From positions 1 through 53,210 of the forward strand of contig JAFIGH010000027.1 of the NCBI GenBank assembly GCA_020831525.1: a stretch of 53,210 nucleotides of DNA, in the 5' to 3' direction. The notes beneath the pieces are model-generated. The model had not been told where the DNA came from and made no database searches. It was given only the letters and a program-made list of their open reading frames with translations. Positions within the stretch are counted from its first letter, which is position 1. Each line of letters starts with the position of its first letter. Shown here piece by piece: positions 15,599 to 39,748 of this stretch. Origin of the DNA: Opitutales bacterium (lineage in GTDB: Bacteria; Verrucomicrobiota; Verrucomicrobiia; Opitutales; Oceanipulchritudinaceae). A program made the position numbers and the translations under genes.

Positions 15599-16462
15599 TC
15601 AACGGTCGCCGCTTCCGGCGGCACCGCGGGCTACGGCACGCGGCGGGGAACGGGGCGTTCGCAGTTGCCGCGATGGCTCAGGAAGTCCGCCGCCCACAGG
15701 CCCTGGGCGAGACAAACTCCCGAAGAAAAGATCGGATCGGCGGAGCAACTCCTTCCATCCCGCACGCCAAGTCCGCCAGTTGTGCCCGCCGTCCACCACC
15801 GCCGTGGTCTCCCTATCGAGATGTGGAAGAAGACGGTCTTGAAACGCCGCGAAGCGGTCGCGCTCGCCCCACGAAGCCCACACCTCAGGGCGACCGTCGG
15901 GATAGGGAGCGTCGTCCAGAAACCAGTCCCAGAACCTCCGGATGTGCTCCGGCTCGAGGTCCGGCGGCAACGGCCCCGACCCCGCCGTATCCAGCCGCGC
16001 CTCCGCAAAGAACGCGGCGTCGTCCCCCACATACGGGCCGAGCAGAATCATCCGGTCCCAGCGTCCGGGGCTGTCCGCCTCGAGGAGCACCGCCCCGAGC
16101 GCCCCGAGCGACGCCGCCACCACCCAGACCTCCCGGTAGCCGTCGGCAACCCGCGGCAGCACATCTTCCCGCATCCGCTCGCCGAGCGTCTCCGACACAT
16201 AGTAGCCGAGGTGGGCGTCCACGAGATAGAAATCCGCCGCAAGCCCCGCTTCCCGGAAATCCGCAGCCAATCCGCGCCGCACGAACACATCCATGCGGTC
16301 GCCGCGCCCCGGAAGGCAGACGACCGCAATGTCGGCCTCGCCTCCGGGATGCCAGTCGACCTCCACGGCCAGCGGCACGACCGGTGCCCGCGGCGCCATA
16401 CAACCCGCGACCAGGCCGCACGCACAGGCCGCCGAAAGAACGAGGAACCGCAACCTTTGCAT
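15599..16462 (-). CDS. Predicted alpha/beta-hydrolase lipoprotein
   Basis: A 287-residue protein starting MQRLRFLVLSAACACGLVAGCMAP, a lipoprotein signal with a lipobox-like LVAGC (cysteine 21). The mature part reads as an alpha/beta hydrolase: VVCLPGRGDRMDVFVRRGL around the oxyanion strand, a nucleophile elbow VVAASLGALGAV with serine at about 127, and DGGHNWRTWRAGW near residue 233 providing the histidine. Substrate unknown. It lies between nusA and the aryl-polyene cluster, divergent from the halogenase gene and sharing the palindromic region at 16601-16626, so it may be part of the cluster. Its start is set by the signal peptide. Confidence 0.65.
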   Translation of the reverse strand: MQRLRFLVLSAACACGLVAGCMAPRAPVVPLAVEVDWHPGGEADIAVVCLPGRGDRMDVFVRRGLAADFREAGLAADFYLVDAHLGYYVSETLGERMREDVLPRVADGYREVWVVAASLGALGAVLLEADSPGRWDRMILLGPYVGDDAAFFAEARLDTAGSGPLPPDLEPEHIRRFWDWFLDDAPYPDGRPEVWASWGERDRFAAFQDRLLPHLDRETTAVVDGGHNWRTWRAGWKELLRRSDLFFGSLSRPGPVGGGLPEPSRQLRTPRSPPRAVARGAAGSGDR

Positions 16463-16600
16463 GCCGCCAATTTCGCGCCCGGAACACTCGTGGCAACGCC
16501 AATCGCCGCACAGTCCGGCTCCGCGGCAAAGCCACTGGATGCCACCCCGCTCTCCCCCACTGTCCCCACCATTCGCGTCAATAATTATAACCATGAGATT

Positions 16601-16626
16601 ATTATAACTCATCGATGAGTTATAAT
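16601..16626. promoter_or_regulatory. 26-bp perfect palindrome, candidate operator/divergent promoter
   Basis: ATTATAACTCATC (16601-16613) is followed by its exact reverse complement (16614-16626). TATAAT occurs at both ends, once per strand, so -10 elements may be built into the palindrome. A TTGACA lies just beyond at 16629-16634. A related half (TTATAACCATGAG) occurs upstream at 16585-16597. The AT-rich patch stands out in GC-rich DNA between the divergent hydrolase (start 16462) and halogenase (start 16765) genes. No other feature is seen in 16463-16764. The binding regulator is unknown and not encoded nearby. Confidence 0.6.
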
Positions 16627-16764
16627 TGTTGACAGCAAAGACGGTCGGCGGGCTCGTTCCGGCGCGAAGAAGTGGTCCGGGGGCTGGTCTTCCGTGTATC
16701 CGCGCGACAGGGAAAGCTTGAAGTCGCGGGCACGGCCCGATAGAACCGTAGGACGGTTTTTACG

Positions 16765-18348
16765 ATGGATTCTGGCGGAAGGCATGCGGACGGCGCGAAA
16801 GAGAAGGAGGCAACGGCATACGATGTCATCATCCTCGGCGGTGCGCTGTCCGGTGCGTCGGCGGCCTACCTTCTGGCGCGGGGCTCCCCGGAGAAACGCA
16901 TTCTCGTGGTCGAGCGGAGTCCGTCGTTTGGGCGGCGGGTGGGCGAGGCAACGGTGGAAATCAGCACCTACTTTCTCACGCGGGTCCTCGGCCTCACGGA
17001 GTATCTGAACCACGGGCACCTCAACAAGCAGGGGCTGCGCTTCTGGTTCCACCGCTCGCGGGACGACGCGGCGGACCGCTGCAGCGAAGTCGGCCCCGGC
17101 TACAACGTGCGCTTCCCGAGCTACCAAGTGGACCGTGCCAAGCTCGACGAAGAAGTCCTTCGCCGCGCCCGTGAAGCCGGCGTGACGGTTCTGCGGCCGG
17201 CGGAAGTCAAAGCCGTGGATTGGAAGCCGGGGGACGAATCAACGGTTACCTACGCCCTCGGCGGCGAAAAGCACACCGCGACCGCCCGATGGATCATTGA
17301 CGCATCGGGCGCGGCCCGCGTCATGGCACGTGCCAACAAGTGGGTGCGGCCCAACGCCGAACACCCGATCGGCTCCATCTGGAGCCGCTGGCGCGGCGTC
17401 GACTGCCTCGACGGGCTTCCCTTCCGTGACAAGCACCCGCGCATCGCCTCGCGCGGCGTCGGCACCCGCTTCACCGCGACCAATCACCTCATCGGCAACG
17501 GCTGGTGGTCATGGTGGATCCCGTTGCACGGCGGGGATATGAGCGTGGGCATCGTATGGGACAGCCGCCTCGCCGCACCGCCGCCGGGAGACTCCCCCGC
17601 CGACCGCCTGCACGCCCACCTGCGCCAGCACCCCCTCGGGCGGGCGCTCCTCGAACATGCGGAACCGCTGCCCGACGACACCCACTACCGCAAGAACCTC
17701 GCATGGCATTCCGAACGCATGGCGGGCGACGGACTCTTCCTCGTCGGCGACGCCGCCGGCTTCATCGATCCCTTTTACAGCCCGGGAATGGACTGGATCT
17801 CCTTCAGTGTCACCTCCGCCGTCCACCTGATCCGCAGCCACTGGGAAGACGGGAGGGACACCGCGGCGCGCGCGGAGCGATTGAATACCGACTTCACCAA
17901 ATCCTACCGGCGATGGTTCGAGGCCATCTACAAGGACAAATACGTGTACATGGGCGACTACGAACTGATGCGCCTCGCCTTCCGGCTCGACCTCGGCCTC
18001 TACTACCTCGGCGTCGTCTCGCAGCCCTACAAACGCGGAGAGCCCGCCCTCACCCAACCGCCCTTCACAGGACCGCGCGCGACCCTGCCGTTTCGGCTCA
18101 TCCGCTTCTACAACCGGCGCCTCGCCCGCATCGCCCGCTCGCGCGCGGAACGCGGAACATGGGGCCGAAAGAATCTCGACGGGGTGTTTTCCTTCAACAG
18201 CTACCGCCTCGACTGGACACTCCCCGTCCGCCTCCTCTTCGCCGCCGGCAGCTACCTGAAATTGGAATTGACGGAAGGCTGGCGCACTTGGCTTTCTCCC
18301 GCTCAAAAGATCCCGCAACCCGTCCCGCAACCGTCCTCCGATGCCTGA
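16765..18348 (+). CDS. Flavin-dependent halogenase-like oxidoreductase
   Basis: A 527-residue FAD enzyme of the tryptophan-halogenase-like family. VIILGGALSGASAAYLLA (near residue 22) is the dinucleotide-binding GxGxxG-type loop, VGEATVEIS follows at about 53, GWWSWWIP (near 246) matches the WxWxIP motif of flavin halogenases, and GDAAGFIDPFYSPGMDW is the second FAD motif. Relatives occur in xanthomonadin/aryl-polyene clusters, where pigments may be brominated or chlorinated; here it may halogenate the aryl head, or act as a non-halogenating oxidoreductase. It begins the plus-strand biosynthetic operon and overlaps the ACP gene. I did not confirm the catalytic lysine. Confidence 0.8.
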   Translation: MDSGGRHADGAKEKEATAYDVIILGGALSGASAAYLLARGSPEKRILVVERSPSFGRRVGEATVEISTYFLTRVLGLTEYLNHGHLNKQGLRFWFHRSRDDAADRCSEVGPGYNVRFPSYQVDRAKLDEEVLRRAREAGVTVLRPAEVKAVDWKPGDESTVTYALGGEKHTATARWIIDASGAARVMARANKWVRPNAEHPIGSIWSRWRGVDCLDGLPFRDKHPRIASRGVGTRFTATNHLIGNGWWSWWIPLHGGDMSVGIVWDSRLAAPPPGDSPADRLHAHLRQHPLGRALLEHAEPLPDDTHYRKNLAWHSERMAGDGLFLVGDAAGFIDPFYSPGMDWISFSVTSAVHLIRSHWEDGRDTAARAERLNTDFTKSYRRWFEAIYKDKYVYMGDYELMRLAFRLDLGLYYLGVVSQPYKRGEPALTQPPFTGPRATLPFRLIRFYNRRLARIARSRAERGTWGRKNLDGVFSFNSYRLDWTLPVRLLFAAGSYLKLELTEGWRTWLSPAQKIPQPVPQPSSDA

Positions 18349-18664
18349 ACCGGCCTTAAACCACGGAGAACGCCCGTCCCGACCACTCTCACCGGACATG
18401 CTCAAAAAAGAACTCAAACAGCTCCTTGTTGAATCACTGAAACTCGAGGACGTCGACCCCGCCTCCATAGGCGACGATGAGCCGCTCTTCGGCGCGGGGC
18501 TCGACCTCGATTCCATCGACGCCCTTGAACTGGTGCTCCAGCTGGAAAAGACCTACGGGATCAAAATCGGGTCCAGCGAGGAGTCCAAACGCGCGCTCGC
18601 TTCCATCCGCGTCCTCGCCGAGTACATTGAGAGCCACCGCGCGGCCCCGGCGGGCGACCGCTGA
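18341..18664 (+). CDS. Acyl carrier protein
   Basis: A carrier protein of 107 residues from ATG 18341, or 88 from ATG 18398 (MLKKELKQLLVESLKLEDV), which matches standard ACP starts better. The phosphopantetheine site is DLDSIDALELVLQLE, with serine in the DSI motif. It should carry the aryl starter and/or growing polyene chain. The 18341 ATG overlaps the halogenase stop. A second ACP is encoded at 31840-32187, so the cluster has two carriers, as do several aryl-polyene clusters. Confidence 0.85.
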   Translation: MPEPALNHGERPSRPLSPDMLKKELKQLLVESLKLEDVDPASIGDDEPLFGAGLDLDSIDALELVLQLEKTYGIKIGSSEESKRALASIRVLAEYIESHRAAPAGDR

Positions 18665-18688
18665 ACCCTCGCTTCGCTCCGCCCCGGA

Positions 18689-19783
18689 ATGCACAGCTAC
18701 CTTGAGGCGTTTGACTGCCGCACAGCTCTCGGGGACGCCGACGCAACGGTCGCAGCTCTGCTTGAAGGCCGTGTCGCTCTCCGCCTCCTGCCCGTCAACA
18801 CCGACTCCGAAAGCGAACGGGTGCCCCTCGCCGCGCGCGGCGACATCGCGGTCACGACCCCGCCGCGCTGGTGGGACGATCTGACGGAATTTCTGGCGAC
18901 CGCTCCCGATGACGACTGGGGATCGCCGCGCAAGCCCGTCCTTCTTTCGAGCAGCAACTTCGGCATCGACCGACTCTACGCCATCGGCACGGGTGCAACG
19001 CCCGATGCGGAGGCGAACACCTGGGCGACGGCCCACGGGATCGCCCGGCGCCTGCGCAGGCAGTTCGGATGGGGCCCCAACCTGCACATCTTCTCCCACG
19101 CCTGCGTATCGGCCCACCTCGCCACCGCCGCTGCCGACACGTGGCTACGCGAAGGCGTGGCGGACAAAGCGCTTGTCGTAAGTTTTGACTACGTGGGCCC
19201 CTTCGTCAGCAGCGGATTTCATTCCCTCAAGATTCTCAACAGCGGAATGCCCGCGCCATACGCCGACCGCCCCACAGGTTCCGTCGGCCTCGGCGACGGC
19301 ACCGCTTGGGCCGTCCTCTCAAACGACCCGTCGCAATGGCGTATTGAAGGCTCGTCGCATTGGAACGAACTCCACCACTTCACCGCCAACGATCCTTCGG
19401 GCAGCGGATTCGAACAGGTCATCGCACCCCTCGCTCCGCTCCTCGAGGGGCACGGTTTCTGGATCAAAGGGCACGGCACGGGCACGCTCGACGCCGGTCG
19501 TCTGGAAGCGGAGTGCCTGCACCGTGCCTTCCCCGGCGTGCCGCTCGTGTCGTGGAAGGGCAGCATCGGGCACACCCTCGGCAGTTGCGCGCTCGTCGAG
19601 CTGGTCCTCGCCCTGCGAGCGCACGAGAGCGGAAGCATCCCGGGCACCACCGGATCCGCCGCTCCGGTGTTCGCGCCCAACGTGGCAACCGGCAACTTCG
19701 ACGCCGCTCCCGCCCGCTCCATCCTTCTCCTCTGCAACGCCTTCGGAGGTGCCCACGGCGCCCTCCTCGTGAGCCATGTTTGA
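18689..19783 (+). CDS. Beta-ketoacyl synthase, divergent
   Basis: A 364-residue ketosynthase-like protein, shorter than FabF (about 410). FSHACVSAHLATAAA (near residue 137) holds the candidate active-site cysteine, IKGHGTGTLDAGRLEAE (near 261) the first histidine, and GSIGHTLGSCALVEL (near 291) the second, so a Cys-His-His triad can be drawn. The C-terminal NAFGGAHGALLV resembles the NGFGGTNA end of ketosynthases. It is a condensing enzyme of the polyene pathway, with the next gene encoding a likely chain-length-factor partner; their frames overlap by 8 bases. Confidence 0.75.
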   Translation: MHSYLEAFDCRTALGDADATVAALLEGRVALRLLPVNTDSESERVPLAARGDIAVTTPPRWWDDLTEFLATAPDDDWGSPRKPVLLSSSNFGIDRLYAIGTGATPDAEANTWATAHGIARRLRRQFGWGPNLHIFSHACVSAHLATAAADTWLREGVADKALVVSFDYVGPFVSSGFHSLKILNSGMPAPYADRPTGSVGLGDGTAWAVLSNDPSQWRIEGSSHWNELHHFTANDPSGSGFEQVIAPLAPLLEGHGFWIKGHGTGTLDAGRLEAECLHRAFPGVPLVSWKGSIGHTLGSCALVELVLALRAHESGSIPGTTGSAAPVFAPNVATGNFDAAPARSILLLCNAFGGAHGALLVSHV

Positions 19784-20456
19784 GCGCCCCGTCCAGTCCG
19801 CCGACGCTTGTTTTCCGGATACCGCCGGGATGCCGGCGACAGACGAGATCAAGGCGGCGGTTCCGCGCAGGCACGCCCGCCGTATGAGCGATCTCGGCCG
19901 CCTTGTGTATTGGCTTTTCCGCAACGATCCGCCGGAGCCGGAGGACGCCATCGTCTACGCCACAACCTTCACCGAGGCCCGTGCACTCGAAGCCTACCTT
20001 GAGAGCCTTCCGCACGCGAGCCCGCTGGCCTTCCAGACATCGATCCATCCGGGCGCGGTGCAGCAAGCCATGATCGCCCTCGGCAGGCCCGTGCGCACGC
20101 TCCTGCCCCTCGCCGGCGAAGAAGACCTCTTCACCCGCATGTGCCTCACCGGCCTGACACAACAAAGCGGGCGTGTCTTCCTCCTGACCGGAGAAGAGCG
20201 AGGAGACCGACTACTACACCACGGACTCGCCTCCGCCACGACGTGGGCGCTTTGCCTACGTCTCGGTCCCGGCAGCGGCGAAGGCAACAAACGTGCCGGA
20301 ACGCTCCGCTGGGAGCGCACTTCCACCGCGCGGGAGAACGACACTGCAACCCCGCCGCCGAGCGCAACGGAGATTGCCCGTGCCGTCCACCGCCGCACGC
20401 CATTGAACCTCCCGACACCGATGGGCGGGACCGTGTACCTAACGTGGACGCCGTGA
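19776..20456 (+). CDS. Ketosynthase chain-length-factor-like protein
   Basis: A 226-residue protein resembling the short 'beta-ketoacyl synthase-like N-terminal' proteins (PF13723 type) of aryl-polyene clusters. RRMSDLGRLVYWLF is followed by a DAIVYATTFTEARALEAYLE strand-helix and LAFQTSIHPGAVQQAMIAL, at the place where homologues have a 'SVHNA' segment. There is no active-site cysteine in a ketosynthase context, so a non-catalytic partner is likely. It overlaps the ketosynthase before it by 8 bases and the acyltransferase after it by 4 (GTGA). Confidence 0.6.
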   Translation: MFERPVQSADACFPDTAGMPATDEIKAAVPRRHARRMSDLGRLVYWLFRNDPPEPEDAIVYATTFTEARALEAYLESLPHASPLAFQTSIHPGAVQQAMIALGRPVRTLLPLAGEEDLFTRMCLTGLTQQSGRVFLLTGEERGDRLLHHGLASATTWALCLRLGPGSGEGNKRAGTLRWERTSTARENDTATPPPSATEIARAVHRRTPLNLPTPMGGTVYLTWTP

Positions 20457-21340
20457 ACCGCAAACGACGCAACCCCGGTCCCTCATGGGGCTACGCTTTC
20501 CTGCAGACTGCCGCGCGGTGGATGCCCGCAGCGCTCTTCCGCATATGCCTCCGCGCCGGCGCCGTCGTCGGCTGGGCCTGCATGCCCCGCGCGCGGCAAT
20601 ATGAGCGCCGCTACTGGCAGGCGCTGCTCGACCGACCGCCCACTGTGCGCGAACAGTGGGCGCACTTCGGCGATTTCGCCGAAACCCTCGCGGCAAAACT
20701 CGCGCTCGCACAGGGAGTGCGCCCCCAATTCCACTTCCACAACGCGGAGACCAGCCGCGACTTTCTCGAAATTTGCCGCGCACCGGGGGCCGTCCTTTTC
20801 GGCTCGTTCCACGTGGGTGAAGCCGACCTCATGGGTGCGATGCTTTCCGACTTCGGGCGAATCGTTCACATGGTCCGGCTTCGCGTCGAGAACTCCCGTG
20901 ATACACAGGCCCTCGAGCAATCGCTCGCCGGTTCGCTTCGTTTCATCTGGGTCAACCAGCCGGAGGAGATGCTCTTCGCCCTGAAGGGCGCGCTGGAGGC
21001 CGGACAAGGAGTCGCTATGCACTGCGACCGCGAGGAGTTCGGCGCCCGCAAAGAAGCCTTTGCTTTCCTCGGACGCCGCCGCTGCTTCCCCTTCACAATC
21101 TACCACCTTTCCGCCCTTTTTCAGGTGCCGGTAGGTTTTGCCTTCGCCCTGCGCCGCGACGGCACCGGATCGATCCCTGTCGTGACGGCCCCCGTTTTCC
21201 GCCCGGCCCCCGACCGGGAGGAGACAATCACAAAAGCAAAGACACACTTCCAGGACGTCCTGCACCTCCTGGAGACACACCTGCGCCGGGATCCGGCAAT
21301 TTGGTTCAACTTCGAACCGCTCAATGAGCCCGTGTCATGA
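20453..21340 (+). CDS. LpxL/HtrB-like lipid acyltransferase
   Basis: A 295-residue protein starting at GTG 20453, whose GTGA overlaps the previous stop; the frame is open to 20141 but translational coupling favours this start. It resembles LpxL-type acyltransferases: the N-terminal hydrophobic stretch near residues 20-45, GSFHVGEADLMGAML (near 123) where the family's HxxxxD/E motif lies, and QGVAMHCDREEFGARKEAFAFLG (near 185). In aryl-polyene clusters such enzymes attach the polyene or fatty acyl chains to a lipid anchor. Substrate here is inferred only. Confidence 0.7.
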   Translation: MNRKRRNPGPSWGYAFLQTAARWMPAALFRICLRAGAVVGWACMPRARQYERRYWQALLDRPPTVREQWAHFGDFAETLAAKLALAQGVRPQFHFHNAETSRDFLEICRAPGAVLFGSFHVGEADLMGAMLSDFGRIVHMVRLRVENSRDTQALEQSLAGSLRFIWVNQPEEMLFALKGALEAGQGVAMHCDREEFGARKEAFAFLGRRRCFPFTIYHLSALFQVPVGFAFALRRDGTGSIPVVTAPVFRPAPDREETITKAKTHFQDVLHLLETHLRRDPAIWFNFEPLNEPVS

Positions 21341-22122
21341 GTCATCCACGACACACCGACTTCCCCCCCGCACACCCCCGTTTTCGACCGGGTTACTACT
21401 TTCTTCTCCTTTTTTTCGGCGCGGGGGCGCTCGCCTTCAATGTATGCGCCGCCGCCCGTATTTGTTTTCCCCACAATGAGCGGACGCAGGAGCGCACCCG
21501 CACCGTCGTCCGAACAATTTTCCGGATATACATGCGGATGCTTACCGCCTCCAAAAGCTTCCGCTACACCGTGGATGCCGAAACGCATTCGCTGGAAGAG
21601 TTGCGCGGCACACTCGTCGTCGCCAACCACCCTGGCATGCTCGACGCTCCGATGCTCTTCGCCCGCATTCCCCGTGCCATCTGCTTCTTCAAGGCCAGCA
21701 TGCATTGGGCGGTCGTCAGCGGCGCGGGCGCACGGCTTTCCGGGTACATTCCCAACAACTCCGGGATAGACGGCATCCGCGAAGCGGTCAACCACCTCGC
21801 ATCCGGTGGCAACGTGATTGTCTTTCCCGAGGGCACGCGCAGCCCCGCGCGGGCTTTGGGACCGTTCCGCGCGGGATACGGACTGATCGCAAAACAGGCG
21901 CAGTGCCCCGTCCTCTGCCTGCTGATCGAAACGAACTCCAACGTACTCGGAAAAGGACAACCGCTTTGGCAGCGGCCGCTCCTGCCCGCGCACTTCCGTA
22001 TCCGCACCATACTCGAAACCCTGCCGCGACCCGGCGAGCCCGTCTCCGCCTTTTCCGACCGTATCGAGGCAAGCTACCACCGGGAATGGCGTCCACCCGC
22101 CTATACGGAGGGCACGGCATGA
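21337..22122 (+). CDS. PlsC-type 1-acyl-glycerol-3-phosphate acyltransferase-like protein
   Basis: A 261-residue protein with an N-terminal hydrophobic segment (YYFLLLFFGAGALAF, near 20-34) and the PlsC motifs: VVANHPGMLDAP, holding the HxxxxD catalytic pair (near 97-102), and VIVFPEGTRSP (near 159). It probably acylates a glycerolipid or anchors the polyene on the inner membrane. The ATG overlaps the previous stop by four bases (ATGA), as it does for the next gene. Two distinct acyltransferases in a row are typical of aryl-polyene clusters. Confidence 0.85.
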   Translation: MSHPRHTDFPPAHPRFRPGYYFLLLFFGAGALAFNVCAAARICFPHNERTQERTRTVVRTIFRIYMRMLTASKSFRYTVDAETHSLEELRGTLVVANHPGMLDAPMLFARIPRAICFFKASMHWAVVSGAGARLSGYIPNNSGIDGIREAVNHLASGGNVIVFPEGTRSPARALGPFRAGYGLIAKQAQCPVLCLLIETNSNVLGKGQPLWQRPLLPAHFRIRTILETLPRPGEPVSAFSDRIEASYHREWRPPAYTEGTA

Positions 22123-22454
22123 CCCGCAACTGCCCTGCCTTCACTGACTGGCGCACCGCGGAGGACGGATCGGCGTCGTGCCGCGCTCAGGTCCCGGACC
22201 GTCCGAAGTGCGTGGAGGGTCATTTTCCGGATGCGCCGATCATACCCGGTGCCGTCCTCCTTGGCTGGGTGTGGACAGCGGCCCGCAGGCACGGTTGGAA
22301 CGTCCGCCCCGCCGCGGTCGCAACGCGCTTTCTTCAACCTGTCCTGCCCGGCGACACTTTGACCCTCCGTTTCTTTAGCCGTGGCGACTACCTTACCGTC
22401 ATTCTTTCGCGGGAAGACAAGCGCGCCGCCGTGTTTCAAATACCAATGGTATAG
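22119..22454 (+). CDS. FabZ/FabA-like hot-dog dehydratase
   Basis: A 111-residue single hot-dog-fold protein. VEGHFPDAPIIPGAVLLGW (near residues 32-50) matches the FabZ motif GHFPxxPIxPGV and includes the active-site histidine. The second catalytic acidic residue is not obvious. It would dehydrate beta-hydroxyacyl-ACP to the enoyl form, which builds the conjugated chain. It lies between the PlsC-like and glycosyltransferase genes. A second, more divergent hot-dog protein is encoded at 26132-26563. Confidence 0.7.
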   Translation: MTRNCPAFTDWRTAEDGSASCRAQVPDRPKCVEGHFPDAPIIPGAVLLGWVWTAARRHGWNVRPAAVATRFLQPVLPGDTLTLRFFSRGDYLTVILSREDKRAAVFQIPMV

Positions 22455-22462
22455 CCCTGCCC

Positions 22463-26135: not shown

Positions 26136-26563
26136 TCGATACCGCCGAAACAATCGACCGCCTGCTGCCACACCGTCCGCCCATCCGGGTCGTGCGCAGG
26201 ATAACGATTCATGCAGAGAACCGCTGGACCTGCCCGCTCCAACTCCGCACCGAAGATTGGACGGACGGCTCACCCGGGAACGGAATTCCCGCGTTCTGGG
26301 CACTCGAATGGATGGCGCAGGCCGCCGGACTCGGCCTCTCCCTCGCGGAGAACGGCGACACAACGCCCTCGGGTCGGCTCGCGCTTATCCGGAACTTCGA
26401 GGCGCAAGCTTTCTCTTTTCCATGCCGGGAGTTGTGGTCGGTTTATGTCGAAAGGCGCCGCGAGGGAACCGACGGACTCTGGCTCTTCCACGCGGAACTG
26501 ACCGATGCTGAGGCTGCAAGAACATGGGCTTGCGCTGAATTCTGCCTGTGGGTGCAATCCTGA
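26132..26563 (+). CDS. ApeP-like hot-dog dehydratase
   Basis: A 143-residue hot-dog-fold protein starting MIDTAETIDRLLPHRPPIRVV, which matches the LLPHRxPxxxVD opening of ApeP/FabZ-like dehydratases. IPAFWALEWMAQAAGL (near 49-64) is the central helix, with E in the position of the active-site glutamate in homologues; no GHF motif is present. It presumably works with the 22119-22454 protein in the dehydration step. The ATG overlaps the exporter stop by 4 bases. Confidence 0.7.
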   Translation: MIDTAETIDRLLPHRPPIRVVRRITIHAENRWTCPLQLRTEDWTDGSPGNGIPAFWALEWMAQAAGLGLSLAENGDTTPSGRLALIRNFEAQAFSFPCRELWSVYVERRREGTDGLWLFHAELTDAEAARTWACAEFCLWVQS

Positions 26564-26573
26564 TCGTTGCGGT

Positions 26574-27941
26574 ATGGCTACGACGGTTTGGAAGCACTGG
26601 AAATCAACGGTCGCCCGCCGCGCGGACGCAACGGCGGTGACCGACGCAAGAGCGCGGGAGCTTTGGTCGTATACGCAGCTTCACGCCGAGGCAGCGGCCC
26701 GCGCCGAAACCATGCACGGACTCGGCATACGGTCAGGCCATGTCGTCGTGCTTGCGAGGGAGAATGGCGCGCGGTGGCTCGCGGATTTCCTCGCCGCGCA
26801 GGCGCTCGGCGCTGTCGCCGTGCCGGTCGACCCGCAAGCGGGCCGGGCTGCTGCCGTGGCCGCCGGGACGAGCGCCGAAGCCGCTCTCCTCATCGGCGGC
26901 GACGGAGCGACAACCATGGAGGGAACGCGCCGTCACCGGGGCGAACTCTGTCTCATAAAGACAACCTCCGGCAGCACAGGCGTACCCCGATTATACTACT
27001 TCACGGACGCCCAGATGCTTGCCGATGCCCGCCAGATCGTGCGCGGAATGGATCTGCACCCCGACGACGTCAATTACGCTGTCATTCCCCTCGGCCATTC
27101 CTACGGTTTGGGCAATCTCGTCTTTCCACTCATCGCGCACGGCATTTCCCTCGTCATTGGACGCGGCTTCTTTCCCGCGGATATCCTCAATGACCTACGC
27201 GAGCACCGTCCCACGGTCTTTCCCGCCGTGCCTCCGCTGCTGCGCGTGCTGTCCGAAACCGAATGTCCCGGACCCCCGGCCCTGCGCAAGGTGATCTCGG
27301 CGGGCGGCAAGCTCGATTCCGCCGTTCGCGACCGCTTCAGGGCGAAGCTCAACGTGCCGGTACACAATTTCTATGGATCCACCGAAACCGGGGGTATCTG
27401 CTACACCCGGCGGATCCCGCAGCCCGGTGAACCCGCCACTGTCGGCGAACCGCTGCCCGGCGTGAGGGTCACGATCAACCGGCGCGGGGCGGTAACGGTG
27501 ACTGGCGCAGCTGTCTATACACGCGGCAACCGCCGCCGCGACGGCGGGCACGGGGTCGTGACCATGTCCGACCTCGGTTCGTTCAACCCGCGGGGCGAGC
27601 TTGTTCTTGGCGGGCGGACAGACCGCGAAGTAAAGGTCGCCGGGCGCCGCCTGCGTCTTGCCGAAATCGAGAGCGCTGCTCTCCGGGAAAGCGGCGTGGA
27701 CGAGTGCTTCGCCCACGCCTTGAGCGCGGACGGTGCGGACAGCCGGATCGGAATCGTCGCCGCAGGCCGGACCGGTCCGGAAATCTTGCGCAAGGCACTC
27801 GCCGCCGCCCTGCCGCCATGGGCGCGGCCAAGGAGGATTGTCGTCGTGCCCGAAATGCCCCTGACCGCCCGCGGCAAATGGTGCCGGGCCTCACTCCTGC
27901 GCCTCCTCGACGGCGAATCCCGCGGCGTGAGCAAGGATTAA
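26574..27941 (+). CDS. AMP-dependent acyl/aryl-CoA or -ACP ligase
   Basis: A 455-residue ANL-superfamily adenylating enzyme. The P-loop is LIKTTSGSTGVPR (near residue 124), with NFYGSTETGGICY (near 263) as the A5 motif, MSDLG as the A7 region and a C-terminal TARGKW with the catalytic lysine. It would activate a hydroxybenzoate starter (from the chorismatase) and load it onto an ACP, the role of XanA2 or ApeH in related pathways. The ATG at 26574 is used because it gives a canonical start; an upstream in-frame start at 26505 exists. It ends convergently, overlapping the minus-strand gene stop by 4 bases. Confidence 0.85.
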   Translation: MATTVWKHWKSTVARRADATAVTDARARELWSYTQLHAEAAARAETMHGLGIRSGHVVVLARENGARWLADFLAAQALGAVAVPVDPQAGRAAAVAAGTSAEAALLIGGDGATTMEGTRRHRGELCLIKTTSGSTGVPRLYYFTDAQMLADARQIVRGMDLHPDDVNYAVIPLGHSYGLGNLVFPLIAHGISLVIGRGFFPADILNDLREHRPTVFPAVPPLLRVLSETECPGPPALRKVISAGGKLDSAVRDRFRAKLNVPVHNFYGSTETGGICYTRRIPQPGEPATVGEPLPGVRVTINRRGAVTVTGAAVYTRGNRRRDGGHGVVTMSDLGSFNPRGELVLGGRTDREVKVAGRRLRLAEIESAALRESGVDECFAHALSADGADSRIGIVAAGRTGPEILRKALAAALPPWARPRRIVVVPEMPLTARGKWCRASLLRLLDGESRGVSKD

Positions 27942-28744
27942 GGATCGATCCCGAAATCGAAACAGCTCAGCCCGCCGTGGGCAAAGTAGCCGGACACCCG
28001 GATCTCCTGATTATTGAGGACAAGGGCGTATTCACCCGGCTCAAGAGGTGCTTTAGGGGAGATGCGGTAAAGCACGAACTCATCCGGGGCCATGCTCTGG
28101 TCTTCGATACGGTTTATATCGATTTCGACAATGCGGTCCGGGTGAATCCCGGTGGAATAACTCATGTAGCCACCGCCGATAAGGACCTCCCTCGAATTGT
28201 TGCGCCGCACCGCGAAGCTGGCCAGATTCATGTAACTCTCCGGCTGAGCCCGCCGGGGAATCGCCAGCGTGAACTCGGGGCTCCGGTCGGATAAACGCAA
28301 ACGCGCCGCCGCGCCATTCAACACAGAATAGGACGCGACCCCACCAAAGCCGAGAGCACGGGCTGCCGTACGGGATTGGGGAATCAGGTAGTTCATCTCA
28401 CTTGTCTCACCATCGTGATGGATGAGAATGACTTCGGGATTGTATTTCTCAACTGCCGACTCAGCCGGGCGGGCGGCTGGCGACTCGGCCGCCGGAGGAT
28501 CCTTGCGGCCGCGGATCATGGCCTGGATCACCGACTCGGGCACATCTGCCTGCATTAGTTCGGAAAGCGCGCCCGCCGAGGTGTCAAACTCCGACTCACT
28601 GTTCTGAATGAGCATCACGACCGTCTCTTCTCCCAGCCCGGAAGAGAGCAAACGAAGGATATCTTCGTTCGTCAGAGGATTCGACTGGAGGGCCACAGGG
28701 GCCGCAATAACCAGCAACGAAAGGATAGAGAGTAGCTTTTTCAT
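27938..28744 (-). CDS. Secreted protein of unknown function
   Basis: A 268-residue protein. MKKLLSILSLLVIAAPVALQS is a signal peptide, followed by a short helical repeat-like unit (NEDILRLLSSGLGEETVVMLIQNS; DTSAGALSELMQADVPESVIQAMI) that often follows signal peptides in verrucomicrobial and acidobacterial proteins. A Pro/Ala/Glu-rich linker and a strand-rich C-terminal domain of about 160 residues follow. The GGVASYSVLNGAAARLR and VLYRISPKAPLEPGEYALVL segments suggest a beta-sandwich. I recognise no named family. It lies downstream of the chorismatase, 110 bases away, inside the pigment cluster. Confidence 0.65.
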   Translation of the reverse strand: MKKLLSILSLLVIAAPVALQSNPLTNEDILRLLSSGLGEETVVMLIQNSESEFDTSAGALSELMQADVPESVIQAMIRGRKDPPAAESPAARPAESAVEKYNPEVILIHHDGETSEMNYLIPQSRTAARALGFGGVASYSVLNGAAARLRLSDRSPEFTLAIPRRAQPESYMNLASFAVRRNNSREVLIGGGYMSYSTGIHPDRIVEIDINRIEDQSMAPDEFVLYRISPKAPLEPGEYALVLNNQEIRVSGYFAHGGLSCFDFGIDP

Positions 28745-28854
28745 CGAAACGAAGAAATCAAATTCGCCCTCGACGGTCAACCGAAAAGTAAACGAGTCCG
28801 CCCGTGGAACACTGTTGCGCCCGGCCGCAGAAATCCGGGTTCTCCACCGCTTCC

Positions 28855-29877
28855 TCAGAGAGCCCCGGCGGGCGTGAAGAGCGTGGCTTCAACTTCCACG
28901 AGGAGTTCCTTCCGGCAGATGTCGGCGTGGACATACACCACACGGTCCTTCCCGCGCAGCAGCGAGTCCTCCAACACGGAACGCACTGCCGCACAGTCCT
29001 CCCAACGCCGGATATACACCCGGAAGTGGCGGCGCGCGGCCTCTGCCGCGGAGGACGTCCCCTCCACCCCCATGAGGCGCAGGTTTTCGACGGTGACACG
29101 GAGCTGCCCGGCGAGGTCTTCCGGAAACCGGCTCTCGCTCGCGATGATCGATGCCGTGCCGGAGACAAGGAGGCAGTCACAGTCTTCGGCAGCCGAGGCA
29201 CGGACCATCGTGGCACGCGCAAAACTTGGCGGACGCGGGCCGTAGCGGGCGGGATAGCGGTAGGCCGGCACCTGGCGCGGATTTTCGCGGTGCTCCACCG
29301 GTGCCCGCACCGCCGTGAAGAGGACGGCAAGCGTATCCCCGCGCAGGCCCACAGCCGTGCCCGCCGGCATCCAGCGTTCAGGCTCATCGCCGAAAGCCGC
29401 GGCGAAGGCCGCCGAACGACCGAGACAGAACTCCCGGTAGTTTTCGCGCGGCGGATCGCCCGGACCACATTCATTTATATCCGGAACCCAGTTCCATATA
29501 CGGCAAAGGTTGTAGCCGCGCGCGACCGTGAAGAGATGCGCGTAGACGTCGTGCGCCGCCCGCGCAAGGCTCTCCGCCGAAGCGGGCACCAGACCCACGC
29601 CAGCCAGCGTATCGTCGTTCGCCCAAACACGGAAAGGGCCGCACTGCCGGAAGGCGGCGCCCGGCACGGCGAGGAAGAGGGGATCCGCCGCAGGCAAACT
29701 ACTTTCCGCGGGCAGCCACAGTGTTCCGCTGCCGTCGGCGCTCTCCTCGAAACTCAGTGGACCGTCCGTGCGGTAACCGAGGCGCAGGAAGGGACCATGC
29801 TCGGCGTTGCCGTCCAAACCAACCGCTCCCGTCTTCACGGGAAGACCCGCCGCCGGTTCCTTCGCAGCGGAGATCAC
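28855..29877 (-). CDS. Chorismatase (FkbO/Hyg5/XanB2-type)
   Basis: A 340-residue protein matching the chorismatase family that cleaves chorismate to a dihydroxycyclohexadienoate, 3-hydroxybenzoate or 4-hydroxybenzoate. Signatures are NLCRIWNWVPDIN (near residues 144-156) then ENYREFCLGRSAAFA, and VSGTASIIASESRFPEDL (near 241), where the family has GTASI-x-ES-x-H; the expected histidine is F here. Its C-terminal half is RidA-like. In Xanthomonas the related XanB2 supplies hydroxybenzoates for xanthomonadin, so this is the likely source of the aryl starter. The exact product cannot be read from the sequence. It overlaps the gene before it by 4 bases. Confidence 0.8.
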   Translation of the reverse strand: MISAAKEPAAGLPVKTGAVGLDGNAEHGPFLRLGYRTDGPLSFEESADGSGTLWLPAESSLPAADPLFLAVPGAAFRQCGPFRVWANDDTLAGVGLVPASAESLARAAHDVYAHLFTVARGYNLCRIWNWVPDINECGPGDPPRENYREFCLGRSAAFAAAFGDEPERWMPAGTAVGLRGDTLAVLFTAVRAPVEHRENPRQVPAYRYPARYGPRPPSFARATMVRASAAEDCDCLLVSGTASIIASESRFPEDLAGQLRVTVENLRLMGVEGTSSAAEAARRHFRVYIRRWEDCAAVRSVLEDSLLRGKDRVVYVHADICRKELLVEVEATLFTPAGAL

Positions 29878-30311
29878 AGGCCCAGCGCCGCTTCGTTGAT
29901 GCTTCTTTTGAGGTCGCCCTCCAGATTTCCCAGCCAGCCCGTAGGCTCGTCGCGCCGGACGCGGTCACCACGGCGGTTGAGGCGCCAAGAATCCGAGTAA
30001 TACCGCGCCCGTTCGGCATCATAGACGATGTAGAGGGTAGAGTCGTTGCGACGGTGCACCAGATTGATCACGACAAGGTTCTTCTCCCGGTCGTCATCGA
30101 CGACATTCCATTCGCGGTTGATCGCCGTGCGGAGAATGTGCTCCCGCATCTCACCGGCGGAACCCAGCGGCTTTGCCGGAGTCACAGTGAGGACAAGATT
30201 CTCCTTGGCATACGATGAAATCTTGTCGGGGAGCGATCCTGCCGAGAGCACCGGGAGAGCCAGAGCAGCGGACAGAAGGAGAGCGACGAGGATGTGGTTT
30301 TTGATTTCCAT
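29874..30311 (-). CDS. Small secreted protein in pigment cluster
   Basis: A 145-residue protein starting MEIKNHILVALLLSAALALPVLSA, a clear signal peptide. The mature part is compact: ENLVLTVTPAKPLGSAGEMREHILRTAI, an EKNLVVINLVHR strand, and a final helix LEGDLKRSINEAAL. The fold is probably periplasmic alpha/beta; I recognise no named family. It is translationally coupled to the chorismatase by a 4-base overlap. It starts 113 bases from the divergent radical SAM gene, so this gap may hold promoters for both directions. Confidence 0.7.
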   Translation of the reverse strand: MEIKNHILVALLLSAALALPVLSAGSLPDKISSYAKENLVLTVTPAKPLGSAGEMREHILRTAINREWNVVDDDREKNLVVINLVHRRNDSTLYIVYDAERARYYSDSWRLNRRGDRVRRDEPTGWLGNLEGDLKRSINEAALGL

Positions 30312-30424
30312 AGAGGCGTTTAACAAGAATGTCCTGTGTCTTAGAAACACCGCCTTTTGTCAAGATCCGAAGAGCCCAATTCTTCTTGAGCCAAATCGTA
30401 AACTCCCGCAGTTTCTCGCCCCGG

Positions 30425-31807
30425 ATGCGCATTCTCCTCGTCAACCTCAACACGGTGGCCGATCCGTTTCCGGTCTTTCCGCTCGGGCTGGCCTACGTGA
30501 GAGAAGCGCTGGAAGCCGAAGGCCACGCCGTGGACGTGTTCGACGACCTCCTTGAAGACGTCGACGCATTTCCCGGCCGCGTCCGCGACTTCGTGCCCGA
30601 TGTCATCGGCTTCTCTTTGCGAAACATCGACAACGTGCGGGCGGACGACGCCGTATCCTACATTGAAGGACTGCGCGCACGGGTGCTCACCGCACGCGCG
30701 GCCGTCCCCGCGAAGATTGTTTTCGGCGGGGCAGGTTTTTCGATTTTTCCGGAGGAGATCCTCCGCCTCACCGGCGCGGACTACGGGATCAGCGGTGAGG
30801 GCGAGGCGGCCTTTCCCGCGCTCGCGCGCATCCTCGCGGGAGACGGGGGCGACCCCGCGGACGTGCCCGGGTTGCTCCACCGCCGGGACGGCCGGATCCA
30901 CCGCGTCCCGCCGCAACCCGCCGTCCGGCACGCATGTCCGCCATTCAACCCTGGCCCGGCGTGGGTCGAGGCCTACCGCGAACGGGGCGCGATCTTCAAC
31001 GTGCAAACGCAACGGGGATGCCCGCTGCATTGCAGCTACTGCACCTACCCGCTCATCGAGGGTTCGCGCCGGCGTCTCCGCGACTACGGTCGCGTCGTGG
31101 AGGAGATGCGGCGATGGCGGGAACTCGGCGTGCGGTATGTCTTCGTCGTCGATTCGGTCCTCAACACCACCGCTGAGCACATGCGGGGTCTGGGCGAAGC
31201 CATCCTTGCCGCGGGCGTGGAAATTCAGTGGGGGTGCTTTCTGCGCCCGCACCGCATCAACGCCGACGATCTCCGCCGCCTACGCGAAGCGGGCCTGCGT
31301 CACATTGAATTCGGGTCGGACAGTTTTTCCGACACGATGCTCAAGGCTTACGGCAAGTCATTCACGTTTTCCATGATCGCCGATGCGAGCGCGGCGGCCG
31401 AGGCTGCGGGCGTCCACTACTGCCACTTCCTCATTCCCGGCGGCCCCGGTGAAACCCGCAAAACGCTCGACGAAACCTTCGAGCGCGCGGAGAGCCTGCC
31501 CGGCGGCGTGTTTTTCGCCTTTCCCGGTGTGCGGGTCTATCCGGGCACTCCGCTCTGGCACCAACTGCGCGCACACGGCACCGGGCTGCCCGACAACCTC
31601 CTCGCTCCGTGGTTCTACATCGAAGAAGGACTCACCGTGGAGGAAATCAACGGTCTTCTGCGCCAGCAGTCACGACGCGACCCGCGCTGGGTCCCGTCCG
31701 AACTGCCCGCCCAGTTCGGAGCCCTCGCAGCCCGCTTCCGCAAGCGCGGGATCGAGGGGCCGCTCTGGGAATACTTCCCCCTCATGAACCGATTCGCCGG
31801 AAGTTGA
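30425..31807 (+). CDS. B12-binding-domain radical SAM enzyme
   Basis: A 460-residue protein. MRILLVNLNTVADPFPVFPLG and DVFDDLLEDVDAFPGRVRDF form a Rossmann-like B12-binding domain (1-150). The radical SAM motif is RGCPLHCSYCTYPLI (near residue 200), with CxxxCxxC intact. GLRHIEFGSDSF and HYCHFLIPGGPGET lie in the barrel. Such enzymes do methylations, rearrangements or ring chemistry, and the B12 domain may or may not hold cobalamin. The family is too broad to give a reaction. It is upstream of an ACP and a ketosynthase in the same operon, so it probably tailors the polyene or head group. ATG 30425 is chosen; an upstream in-frame start at 30329 looks spurious. Confidence 0.75.
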   Translation: MRILLVNLNTVADPFPVFPLGLAYVREALEAEGHAVDVFDDLLEDVDAFPGRVRDFVPDVIGFSLRNIDNVRADDAVSYIEGLRARVLTARAAVPAKIVFGGAGFSIFPEEILRLTGADYGISGEGEAAFPALARILAGDGGDPADVPGLLHRRDGRIHRVPPQPAVRHACPPFNPGPAWVEAYRERGAIFNVQTQRGCPLHCSYCTYPLIEGSRRRLRDYGRVVEEMRRWRELGVRYVFVVDSVLNTTAEHMRGLGEAILAAGVEIQWGCFLRPHRINADDLRRLREAGLRHIEFGSDSFSDTMLKAYGKSFTFSMIADASAAAEAAGVHYCHFLIPGGPGETRKTLDETFERAESLPGGVFFAFPGVRVYPGTPLWHQLRAHGTGLPDNLLAPWFYIEEGLTVEEINGLLRQQSRRDPRWVPSELPAQFGALAARFRKRGIEGPLWEYFPLMNRFAGS

Positions 31808-31839
31808 CTTGACTCTCCTCCAAAATCAATGCCTTGCCT

Positions 31840-32187
31840 ATGCCCATGATCCCGCCTTCCGAAGCCGCTGAAAAGCTTCCCGGATACCCCGAAGAGGTTC
31901 TCCAAGCATACGCCGACTACTACCGCGAACGGCGCTCGCACGACCTCGACCGCGTTGTCTTCGGTCTCATCGCTTTTCTCCTCCCCGAGCCTCCCGAAAG
32001 GCCACTCCATGAGCTGCCGGACTCAACCGACCTGCGCGCCGACCTCCAGATCGACTCCATCACGATCGCCGAAGTCGTCTTTATCATCGAAGACCTCTTC
32101 GACCTCAAGATCAGCAACGATACGCTCATGAGCCTTCAGACCACGGGCGACCTCAAAAACCACCTGCGCAAAGAGCTGGCGGGTTGA
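31840..32187 (+). CDS. Acyl carrier protein, second
   Basis: A 115-residue protein from ATG 31840 (a second ATG follows at 31846). The first ~60 residues are a helical extension (YPEEVLQAYADYYRERRSH) not present in ordinary ACPs. The carrier site is DLQIDSITIAEVVFIIEDL, with serine in the DSI motif, and the protein ends with a typical ACP helix (LKNHLRKELAG). It lies 32 bases after the radical SAM gene and 5 before the second ketosynthase, suggesting a dedicated carrier for that enzyme. Confidence 0.75.
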   Translation: MPMIPPSEAAEKLPGYPEEVLQAYADYYRERRSHDLDRVVFGLIAFLLPEPPERPLHELPDSTDLRADLQIDSITIAEVVFIIEDLFDLKISNDTLMSLQTTGDLKNHLRKELAG

Positions 32188-32192
32188 GTGCC

Positions 32193-33458
32193 ATGCAGAG
32201 AGAGGTTGCTGTTACCGGCCTCGGATGGGTCACAAGCATCGGCTGTGACGGCGCCAGCGTCCTCCACAGCCTCCGGCACTCCCGCTCCGGCATACGCCCG
32301 GTCGACTGGTTTCCCGGCGCGGAAGACAATCCCGTGAAGGTCGCCGGCACGGTCCCGGAGTTCGACGTTTCCAGCCATGCATGGCCCCTCTGGAAGTATC
32401 CCGGGCAATACACCCTCCGCCGCGACGCCCTCCGCTCCCTCCCGCCGCACGGCATCTACGCGCTCTGTGCCACCCTCCAGGCCCTCGAAGACGCCGGTCT
32501 CGCCGAGTCGGAGATCTCCTCGCCGCGCACCGGCCTCTTCTGCGCCTCCGCCGGCTCTCCCATGCTCATGCGCCGACACCTTTCGCAGATCGACGCCTCC
32601 AGCGGCGCGCGCGGCCACCCGCTCGGCGTCGTCAGTTCCATCTCCGGGACGCTCAACTTCAATCTCGGTGCCTACTTCAAAATCAAAGGCGCCAACATGG
32701 GTGTCGTCTCCGCCTGCGCCTCCTCCAGCCATGCCGTCGCCTACGCCATGGAGGAGATCCGCTCCGGGCGTCAGGAACGCATGATCGTCGTCGGTGCCGA
32801 AGAGGTCAACGCCGAGACCCTCGTGCCCTTCGCCGCCATGCGAGCGCTCAGCCCTTCCGCCGGCCCCGATGCCTCCTGCCCGTTCGACCGCCGCCGCGAC
32901 GGATTTGTCGGCACCGGCGGCGCCGTCACCCTCATCCTCGAGAGCACCGCCCTCGCCCACTCGCGCAGTGCCCGCCTTCGCGCCCTCGCACGCGGCTGGG
33001 GGCAAGCCTCCGACGGCCACAACATCGCCATTTCCCGTGAAGACGGCGACGGCCTCGCCCGCGCCATGGAAAACGCCCTTGCCGATGCCGCTCTCGCCCC
33101 GCGCGACATCGCCTACATCAACGCCCACGCCACCTCCACCCCCGTCGGCGATCTCTCCGAAACCCGCGCCCTCGCCCGCGTCTTCGCCGACCATCCGGAC
33201 GTCCCCGTGAGCAGCACCAAAGCCCTCACCGGACACGCCCTTTCCATGGCCGGCGCCCTCGAAGCCGCCGTCACATGCCTTTGCCTCGAAGACAGCTTCA
33301 TCCCGCCCCAGGCGCACCTCCGCGAACCCGACCCCGGCTGCGCAAAGCTTCACCTTCCCACCGCTCCCCTCGCCCTCGGGGGCGAATATGCCCTCTCCAA
33401 CAGCAGCGGCTTCGGCGGCAGCAACGTCACCCTCGTCTTCCGCCGGGCGGACGCCTGA
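32193..33458 (+). CDS. Beta-ketoacyl-ACP synthase (FabF-like)
   Basis: A 421-residue ketosynthase starting at ATG 32193 (MQREVAVTGLGWVTSIG); an in-frame TTG at 32184 overlaps the ACP stop. The catalytic cysteine is in VVSACASSSHAVAYA (near residue 174), the first histidine in NAHATSTPVGDLSE (near 311), and the second in TKALTGHALSMAGALE (near 347). NSSGFGGSNVTLVF closes the fold. This is a complete FabF-type condensing enzyme and the most likely chain-elongating ketosynthase of the cluster, alongside the more divergent one at 18689-19783. It ends the plus-strand biosynthetic block. Confidence 0.92.
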   Translation: MQREVAVTGLGWVTSIGCDGASVLHSLRHSRSGIRPVDWFPGAEDNPVKVAGTVPEFDVSSHAWPLWKYPGQYTLRRDALRSLPPHGIYALCATLQALEDAGLAESEISSPRTGLFCASAGSPMLMRRHLSQIDASSGARGHPLGVVSSISGTLNFNLGAYFKIKGANMGVVSACASSSHAVAYAMEEIRSGRQERMIVVGAEEVNAETLVPFAAMRALSPSAGPDASCPFDRRRDGFVGTGGAVTLILESTALAHSRSARLRALARGWGQASDGHNIAISREDGDGLARAMENALADAALAPRDIAYINAHATSTPVGDLSETRALARVFADHPDVPVSSTKALTGHALSMAGALEAAVTCLCLEDSFIPPQAHLREPDPGCAKLHLPTAPLALGGEYALSNSSGFGGSNVTLVFRRADA

Positions 33459-36084: not shown

Positions 36085-36135
36085 GTCTGTATTTTAATAT
36101 GTATTTAAGGCAGGGTTTCTTTGTGATGTTAACTC

Positions 36136-37721: not shown

Positions 37722-37891
37722 GACGCAAACGCTCGCAGGGAAGAGACCGCCGTGTCCATCCCGGATTTCACGAATTCACGCAAATGGGATTGAGAGGCCT
37801 CGGGAAAGGCGCTTTGTATGGCCGGTTTGGGAAGTCGCGGGCCGACGGGGCAGTGAGTGCGCGCGGTTCGTGCTTCAGGAGAGGCCATACT

Positions 37892-39745: not shown

Positions 39746-39748
39746 GGC

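Follow-up and report, generated by a model that had tools for sequence, protein, structure and literature searches.

A probable aryl-polyene gene cluster of an Opitutales genome without a clustered ketoreductase and with a linked B12-binding radical SAM gene

Analysis of a 53,210-nucleotide stretch of an Opitutales genome (contig JAFIGH010000027.1 of assembly GCA_020831525.1, 5.3 Mb in 184 contigs; the whole stretch is called the window below) revealed a gene cluster at positions 16765-33458 that we assign, with good confidence, to the aryl-polyene (APE) type with a xanthomonadin flavour, and for which a pathway can be proposed. Judging from its genes, the product is probably a 3-hydroxybenzoate-primed polyene lipid of the outer membrane and a yellow pigment. 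A first-pass annotation of the same DNA had already named an APE/xanthomonadin-type cluster, and every gene type that it listed was found: acyl carrier proteins (ACPs), ketosynthases (KSs), dehydratases, ligase, acyltransferases, LolA-like and MMPL proteins, a halogenase-like enzyme and a chorismatase. It had overlooked the gene of a B12-binding radical S-adenosylmethionine (SAM) enzyme and the absence of a ketoreductase, and these two features, rather than the presence of APE genes in Verrucomicrobiota, are of most interest here.

Gene calling with Pfam and NCBIfam searches of the cluster proteins outlined a 12-gene operon and two further gene blocks (Table 1). The 12 genes from the halogenase-like gene (HAL) to the ligase gene (LIG; 16765-27941) are separated by gaps of only -8 to +24 bases, with overlaps at 8 of 11 junctions, and therefore very likely form one operon. 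An opposite-strand block (U269, the chorismatase gene CHOR, and U158) follows, and then the block B12SAM-ACP2-KSF (30425-33458), which joins the radical SAM gene to a second ACP and a FabF-like ketosynthase. All cluster genes of the window are open. The span first proposed, 15599-33458, holds for the core genes, but its first 912 bases encode a hydrolase-like protein outside the core.

Several single-protein domain matches were weak, since the chain-length factor (CLF) and the two dehydratases (DH1 and DH2) fell below cut-off and the LpxL-like acyltransferase and the MMPL protein had no Pfam match. We therefore aligned each window protein with its relatives and used hhalign to compare these alignments with all 18 proteins that the APE region of E. 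coli CFT073 encodes; the letters A to R of the latter were assigned by gene order, as the record itself carries no such names. Fourteen window proteins paired with 13 Ape proteins, which together with the chorismatase and the halogenase-like gene bears out the assignment to the APE/xanthomonadin type. The pairing of ACP1 with ApeE reached 99.5%, the weakest were CLF-ApeC (59-69%), DH2-ApeP (69%) and U158-ApeA (87%), and non-homologous pairs did not exceed 4.6%. No partner among the 18 proteins was found for the hydrolase-like protein (hyd), HAL, CHOR, B12SAM or U269 (1.2% at most). Similar gene sets recur in relatives, and a chance assembly or domain mis-call was ruled out by the gene packing, this recurrence and the profile matches.

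The ketosynthase pair gave further evidence of kinship with APE proteins. In a profile search of the PDB, KS1 matched 7f28_B first and ApeO (6qsp_A) fifth. Since a phmmer search with the CLF sequence alone returned chance matches only, its structure was modelled with AlphaFold2 from 33 sequences (pLDDT 91), and the top PDB match of the model was the Xenorhabdus ApeC (6qsp_B, E 3.3e-8). A ketosynthase with a catalytic cysteine is thus paired with an ApeC-type chain-length factor. Residues C139, H262 and H295 of KS1 were each kept in 37 of 37 aligned sequences, C178, H315 and H351 of KSF in 26 of 26, D57 and S58 of ACP1 in 41 of 41, and H14 and E59 of DH2 in 3 of 3. The cluster also holds, by homology, an AMP-ligase and an ACP dedicated to an aryl acid as starter, the identity of which is predicted, as well as ApeI- and ApeP-type dehydratases (the DH2 match being weak) and genes for LolA/MMPL export and for anchoring by acyltransferases and a glycosyltransferase.

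Like the ape clusters of E. coli CFT073 and Xenorhabdus doucetiae, the window cluster has two ACPs, an ApeO/ApeC-type KS-CLF pair, an ApeR-type ketosynthase, two dehydratases, an ApeH ligase, ApeD, both halves of ApeJ, LolA, MMPL and an ApeA-like protein. Unlike them, it splits ApeJ into two genes, follows a different gene order, lacks ApeQ, ApeK, ApeB, ApeN and ApeG, and adds the chorismatase, the halogenase-like enzyme and the B12-radical SAM enzyme. With the xan (Xanthomonas), arc (arcuflavin, Azoarcus) and Lysobacter clusters, compared by published annotation only, it shares a chorismatase (of XanB2 type in those clusters), a ketosynthase with a small KS-like partner, the ligase, dehydratases, LolA, an exporter, a glycosyltransferase and acyltransferases (PMC3949708, PMC3691225). 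By the same annotations, xan and arc have a halogenase, matched by the halogenase-like gene of the window, and Lysobacter has none; a ketoreductase belongs to those clusters (arcH in arc, ORF13 in Lysobacter) but not to the window cluster.

A survey of 177 sampled Opitutales genomes found KS1 in 38 and the chorismatase in 40, with both in 36. Stretches carrying KS1, CLF, the LpxL-like acyltransferase and MMPL together were taken as cluster stretches; 35 were collected, 32 of them distinct, and those other than the window are 21.6 kb or shorter, some stopping at a contig end. The source genome itself belongs to the Verrucomicrobiota, as first annotated, since the closest named relatives of HAL among the matches listed are Opitutales metagenome-assembled genomes (SLLG01000240.1, 89%; JAFIGE010000125.1, 72%).

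Ketoreductase genes were sought with tblastn, as a motif regular expression missed ApeQ itself. Neither ApeQ nor the source genome's own FabG found a match in the 53-kb window, so that the clustered ketoreductase expected of an APE cluster, and equally of a xanthomonadin cluster, is missing there; ApeK thioesterase, ApeB methyltransferase, ApeN and ApeG were not found in the window either. Only one of the 32 distinct cluster stretches held a ketoreductase, a short-chain dehydrogenase/reductase (SDR) on the strand opposite to its cluster (L209), although the stretches are short, some end at a contig end, and a more distant ketoreductase is possible. Certain stretches from other Verrucomicrobiota, L074, L096 and L111 among them, do have a ketoreductase gene between an ACP and a KS gene near HAL. 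A pathway broken or truncated by the loss of ketoreductase, methyltransferase and thioesterase, so that no polyene is made, would fit these absences, as well as the finding that the FabG of A. baumannii cannot replace ApeQ in vitro (PMC8041823). We consider this highly improbable, as the window cluster genes are all open, the KS active sites are invariant over wide divergence, and the 31 distinct stretches likewise without a detectable ketoreductase still keep ACP1, KS1, CLF and the acyltransferase genes. This retention of core genes and active sites, rather than any dN/dS estimate, suggests that the cluster is under selection.

A ketoreductase from elsewhere in the genome may instead serve the proposed APE pathway. 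The source genome holds 23 matches to the SDR profile, and its best match to ApeQ, 43% identical, lies beside a ketoacyl-synthase gene and, judged by this neighbour, is FabG. In the motif APG(F/L)I it carries Phe, the residue of E. coli ApeQ being Leu; Leu185/Phe183 is reported to be the gate (PMC8041823). In Lysobacter, a mutant of the clustered ketoreductase (ORF13) lost its pigment (PMC3691225). Given the failure of FabG in another species, a verrucomicrobial variant that is conserved and lacks a ketoreductase of its own offers a clear test of the origin of this step.

The second distinguishing feature, B12SAM, has a B12-binding and a radical SAM domain with CxxxCxxC at position 199. Its best NCBIfam family is TIGR04072 ("rSAM_ladder_B12"), whose cut-off of 360 bits it narrowly misses at 356 and which 10 of the 177 order genomes pass. 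At E <= 1e-60, B12SAM/TIGR04072 was found in 13 order genomes, all of which carry KS1 or the chorismatase. Ten of these 13 have it in one fetched stretch together with further cluster genes: the window, G130, G040, G084, G157, G003, G013 and G139 and, on weaker matches, G046 and G091. The window, G130, G040, G084 and G139 keep the gene order B12SAM-ACP2-KSF with CHOR adjoining. When the phylum was sampled, TIGR04072 was present in 33 of the 288 genomes; 29 of these lie outside the order, and only 4 of the 29 gave a chorismatase match at E <= 1e-15, each of them weak (68.3 bits or less). Trees were built from 34 copies, including the 20 best-scoring from outside the order, and from 44 copies covering all 30 outside-order places, five of the 10 added rows having long branches. 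The 13 Opitutales copies formed their own clade with 100/100 branch support in both trees; these copies were labeled as APE-associated (all Opitutales copies except G130:C54), including three for which no linkage was detected. With the 31 copies that fall outside this clade, the window protein shares 29-38% identity. B12SAM thus has the domain layout of TIGR04072 but, unlike other copies of the family, belongs to a separate Opitutales clade linked to APE genes.

The family name raises the alternative of a ladderane-like or polyunsaturated-lipid cluster, in which a TIGR04072-type radical SAM enzyme and a FabF-type ketosynthase would yield a fatty acid, cyclised or polyunsaturated, in place of an aryl polyene. 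The B12-radical SAM enzyme Kuste2803 has been discussed as a candidate ladderane cyclase in clusters of the type II fatty acid synthesis type (Rattray et al., PMC2649909) and may belong to TIGR04072, and "ladderane" clusters without assigned function have been reported in Verrucomicrobiota in a study that describes ladderane lipid formation as unknown (PMC9902471). Several radical SAM and desaturase-like genes with FabF paralogues, as in ladderane clusters, were not found: the 19 cluster proteins scanned include one radical SAM enzyme and no phytoene-desaturase-like protein. Moreover, the chorismatase, the aryl ligase and the ApeO/ApeC-type KS-CLF pair indicate an aryl starter, the Opitutales clade stands apart from the remaining copies found in Verrucomicrobiota, and B12SAM is missing from 29 of the 42 genomes that have KS1 or the chorismatase. 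We regard such a lipid cluster as very unlikely, and the separate clade together with the aryl-starter genes ruled out a plain ladderane cluster.

With somewhat less than even confidence, we propose that B12SAM catalyzes a genuine APE step in Opitutales, modifying an ACP-bound aryl or polyenyl chain by C-methylation or ring formation in partnership with ACP2-KSF, while the ketoreductase comes from outside the cluster. Our literature searches met no radical SAM enzyme linked to an APE pathway in the passages found. If true, B12SAM would be the first such enzyme as far as the literature was searched, and would give a handle on the action of ladderane-type enzymes: its linkage to a pathway with well-guessed substrates (aryl- and polyenyl-ACPs) provides a tractable entry to the chemistry of a ladderane-named family.

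A second TIGR04072 gene in G130 (G130:C54, 645 bits) was rejected as part of the cluster, as the GC content of its contig is 49.5% vs 65% for two other contigs of that assembly; the contig is probably misbinned. It carries a ladderane-type set (L191, 1-13722) with two or more B12-radical SAM proteins, KS-like genes, glycosyltransferase and acyltransferase genes, an ApeK-like thioesterase and, by reading of the sequence, an RND-like exporter, which suggests that ladderane-type clusters have many APE-like parts in common.

For the starter unit, profile searches of the PDB with CHOR returned 5ag3, which we take to be Hyg5, at 9.2e-41 and FkbO (4bps) at 6.7e-32. The positions that mark chorismatase subfamilies, including the CH-II marks, are those named in PMC7170507, transferred from the published numbering with a uniform offset of 9. 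Equivalents of Gly-231 (VSGTA), Cys-318 (DICR) and the last Glu (LLVE) were kept in all 14 aligned sequences, the window included, unlike FkbO, which has Ala at both the Gly-231 and Cys-318 equivalents. Two of the three CH-II marks and the catalytic Glu are thus present and the third mark is Ala in the window; 3-hydroxybenzoate (3-HBA) is the likely product of CHOR, as in xanthomonadin, and a XanB2/Hyg5 subtype is tentative. Nine plasmid records had chorismatase matches, and the one inspected was not in an APE cluster.

The cluster also resembles those of xanthomonadin in its halogenase-like gene, whose activity is predicted. Halogenases came first when the HAL profile was compared with the PDB (3e1t, "Halogenase", 1.4e-32; CmlS, 3i3l, 1.1e-29; PltA and others). 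Halogenases are marked by a lysine corresponding to K88 and by the motifs WxWxI and FxxPxxSxG; K88, W248, W250, I252, F333, P336, S339 and G341 of HAL were invariant in 16 aligned orthologues, and the proline after WxWxI was nearly so. Halogenation of the polyene, which the first-pass annotation had offered as a possibility, is plausible on this evidence. Within the same APE pathway, HAL might hydroxylate or otherwise oxidise its substrate: flavin monooxygenases (QhpG; the Lsd18/LasC epoxidase) are among its weaker matches, and sequence alone does not fix halogenation. With named halogenases as the best profile relatives and the motif residues invariant, we hold this variant to be rather unlikely.

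At E <= 1e-20, HAL matched 25 of the 177 order genomes; the long form is present in 17, each of which also has KS1, and the other 8 have just a shorter paralogue. Among the best 80 loci kept from a scan of named genomes, 77 have verrucomicrobial titles and the other three are titled Betaproteobacteria, Phycisphaerae and Binatia. In Luteolibacter pohnpeiensis and Brevifollis (set L089, L102), long HAL genes lie away from APE genes, in the former amid apparently unrelated genes and in the latter near two further halogenase-like genes. In many Opitutales (L031-L035, L054-L056), the shorter paralogue (~420-480 aa) lies next to the cluster or to the chorismatase gene, and sometimes it takes the place of the long form. 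Distant halogenases were found in 50 plasmid records, none covering 80% of HAL, and the one inspected was not in an APE cluster.

The genes present, their homologies, their linkage and the conservation of catalytic residues lead us to infer the following reactions, their order and the pigment. CHOR would convert chorismate to 3-HBA, which LIG would activate and load onto ACP1. KS1/CLF, aided by KSF, would then elongate the chain with malonyl units from ACP2, while the ketoreductase from elsewhere in the genome and DH1/DH2 would yield the conjugated chain. HAL probably halogenates the aryl ring, and B12SAM probably tailors an aryl or polyenyl intermediate carried by an ACP, most likely by a C-methylation that replaces the missing ApeB. 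The two acyltransferases and the glycosyltransferase would attach the polyene to a lipid anchor, and MMPL and LolA would transport it to the outer membrane, where it may act as a light screen and oxidant quencher. The outer-membrane fate foreseen at first annotation agrees with the presence of these anchoring and export genes.

Several observations weigh against this overall reading. The cluster lacks a ketoreductase, an ApeK-type thioesterase and an ApeB-type methyltransferase, with the FabG failure cited above, and many domain matches fall under curated cut-offs. For the chorismatase, none of the 177 order genomes passes the curated TIGR04444 cut-off, the equivalent of Gly-164, the third CH-II position, is Ala in 12 of 14 sequences including the window, and the chorismatase-positive set includes weak matches (G023, 59 bits). 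The genome co-occurrence counts are uncorrected for phylogeny; by genus, KS1 and chorismatase each occur in 27 of 76, 26 of them shared. Searches of the 35 cluster stretches with tblastn found DH1 in 10, DH2 in 5, CHOR in 19 and LIG in 24, numbers that shortened stretches and fast divergence of the proteins may have lowered, though true gene loss may also contribute. Long HAL is absent from 21 of the 38 KS1 genomes, one of the 17 long copies (G175) has an internal stop, and KS1 was detected in only 19 of the 80 best named HAL stretches, many of them short; since most of these stretches lack a detected KS1, the substrate of HAL need not be a polyene. Finally, the B12SAM linkage in G046 and G091 rests on weak matches, and the B12SAM stretches fetched from G118, G146 and G105 yielded no further cluster gene, the G118 contig ending just beyond B12SAM.

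Aryl polyenes are called among the most widespread secondary metabolites of Gram-negative bacteria (PMC8253772, PMC8358021), and the characterised type II APE pathways met in the literature come only from Pseudomonadota and Bacteroidota. The suggestion that a verrucomicrobial version with this gene order "may be undescribed" is weakened as regards the cluster type: besides KS1 in more than a fifth of the sampled order genomes, antiSMASH arylpolyene clusters have been published for the Opitutales strain ASA1, Congregicoccus parvus (PMC10927696, PMC12193912), and for another member of the phylum, the yellow Oceaniferula flavus (PMC9865893). Among the Verrucomicrobiota of Antarctic soil, arylpolyene was the second commonest cluster type and Opitutales were among the most prolific orders for clusters generally (PMC8692599), and "Ca. 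Udaeobacter" also has an arylpolyene cluster (PMC7343977). In their accessible passages, the reports on ASA1, O. flavus and Antarctic soil give the cluster type and do not discuss gene content, ketoreductase or radical SAM linkage; no chemically characterised verrucomicrobial aryl polyene was found in the literature searched, as far as its available passages go.

Table 1. Genes of the cluster and its adjoining hydrolase-like gene in the window, with their supporting matches
Gene and predicted product	Position	Strand	Evidence
hyd: alpha/beta-hydrolase-like	15599..16510	-	weak Esterase/Hydrolase_4 matches below cut-off
HAL: flavin-dependent halogenase-like	16765..18348	+	Trp_halogenase PF04820 61 bits
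ACP1: ApeE-like acyl carrier protein	18341..18664	+	PF00550; NF006617 85 bits (cut-off 70)
KS1: ApeO-like ketosynthase, Cys139/His262/His295	18689..19783	+	hhalign ApeO 99.9%
CLF: ApeC-like chain-length factor	19776..20456	+	Ketoacyl-synt_2 E 3.2e-4, below cut-off
LpxL-like acyltransferase	20453..21340	+	no Pfam match; hhalign ApeJ residues 259-547, 97.7%
PlsC-like acyltransferase, ApeD-like	21337..22122	+	PF01553 2.6e-15; hhalign ApeD 99.9%
DH1: ApeI-like hot-dog dehydratase	22119..22454	+	FabZ model E 3.1e-5, below cut-off; ApeI 93.1%
Family 2 glycosyltransferase (GT2)	22463..23230	+	PF00535 1.6e-14; hhalign ApeJ residues 4-233, 100%
LolA-like periplasmic carrier, ApeL-like	23227..23862	+	PF19574 LolA_3 32.5 bits (cut-off 23); ApeL 97.6%
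MMPL/RND-type exporter, ApeM-like	23859..26135	+	no Pfam match; weak BstA/HpnN; ApeM 100%, 724 columns
DH2: ApeP-like dehydratase, His14/Glu59	26132..26563	+	PF22817 E 0.026, below cut-off; ApeP 69.2%
LIG: AMP-dependent aryl-acid ligase, ApeH-like	26574..27941	+	PF00501 1.2e-46; hhalign ApeH 99.5%
U269: probably exported protein, optional	27938..28747	-	no Pfam family
CHOR: chorismatase	28855..29877	-	PF21168 5.7e-18; TIGR04444 189 bits, below cut-off 325
U158: ApeA-like small exported protein	29874..30350	-	hhalign ApeA 86.7%
B12SAM: B12-binding radical SAM enzyme	30425..31807	+	PF02310 1.1e-17; PF04055 2.3e-19; TIGR04072 356 bits
ACP2: ApeF-like acyl carrier protein	31834..32187	+	PF00550 1.5e-7; hhalign ApeF 92.5%
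KSF: FabF/ApeR-like ketosynthase, Cys178/His315/His351	32184..33458	+	TIGR03150 320 bits (cut-off 494); ApeR 100%

KS1 passes the Pfam cut-off with its C-terminal domain only. The hyd gene, divergent from the operon and with a lipobox-like N-terminus by reading of its sequence, occurs in 6 of the 32 distinct cluster stretches (the window counted), all of family f1, and is an optional neighbour. U269 was found in 2 of 35 stretches, with a 48% identical homologue directly after LIG in L195. A tblastn search with ApeA matched the U158 orthologues of L045 (6.9e-7) and L047 (1.6e-4) and did not match the window copy. The cluster is flanked by housekeeping genes, including a NifU-like protein by Pfam scan and, as read from translations, nusA and infB on one flank and sufS on the other. 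A recent island was considered and showed no visible sign, the GC content being 64.6% inside the cluster vs 62.9% in the rest of the window; no mobile gene was found among the cluster proteins scanned with Pfam.

Elsewhere in the window, a DarT toxin (319-957) and DarG antitoxin (960-2033) are followed by a large PDC-M23B-type helicase (2043-5330) and by a second, short DarG macro domain standing alone (5337-5837). Over 159 residues this copy shares 92% identity with the first DarG, and it may serve as a spare or decoy antitoxin of a defence element. At 35446-37065 lie two proteins, both probably exported and neither with a Pfam family, the first with a PEP-CTERM-like tail by reading. Further along are a tandem pair of HSP70-like proteins, of which the second has a DUF3731 C-terminus (37784-42571), and an IS200-like (Y1) transposase-family gene with a weak match barely above cut-off (42805-43716).

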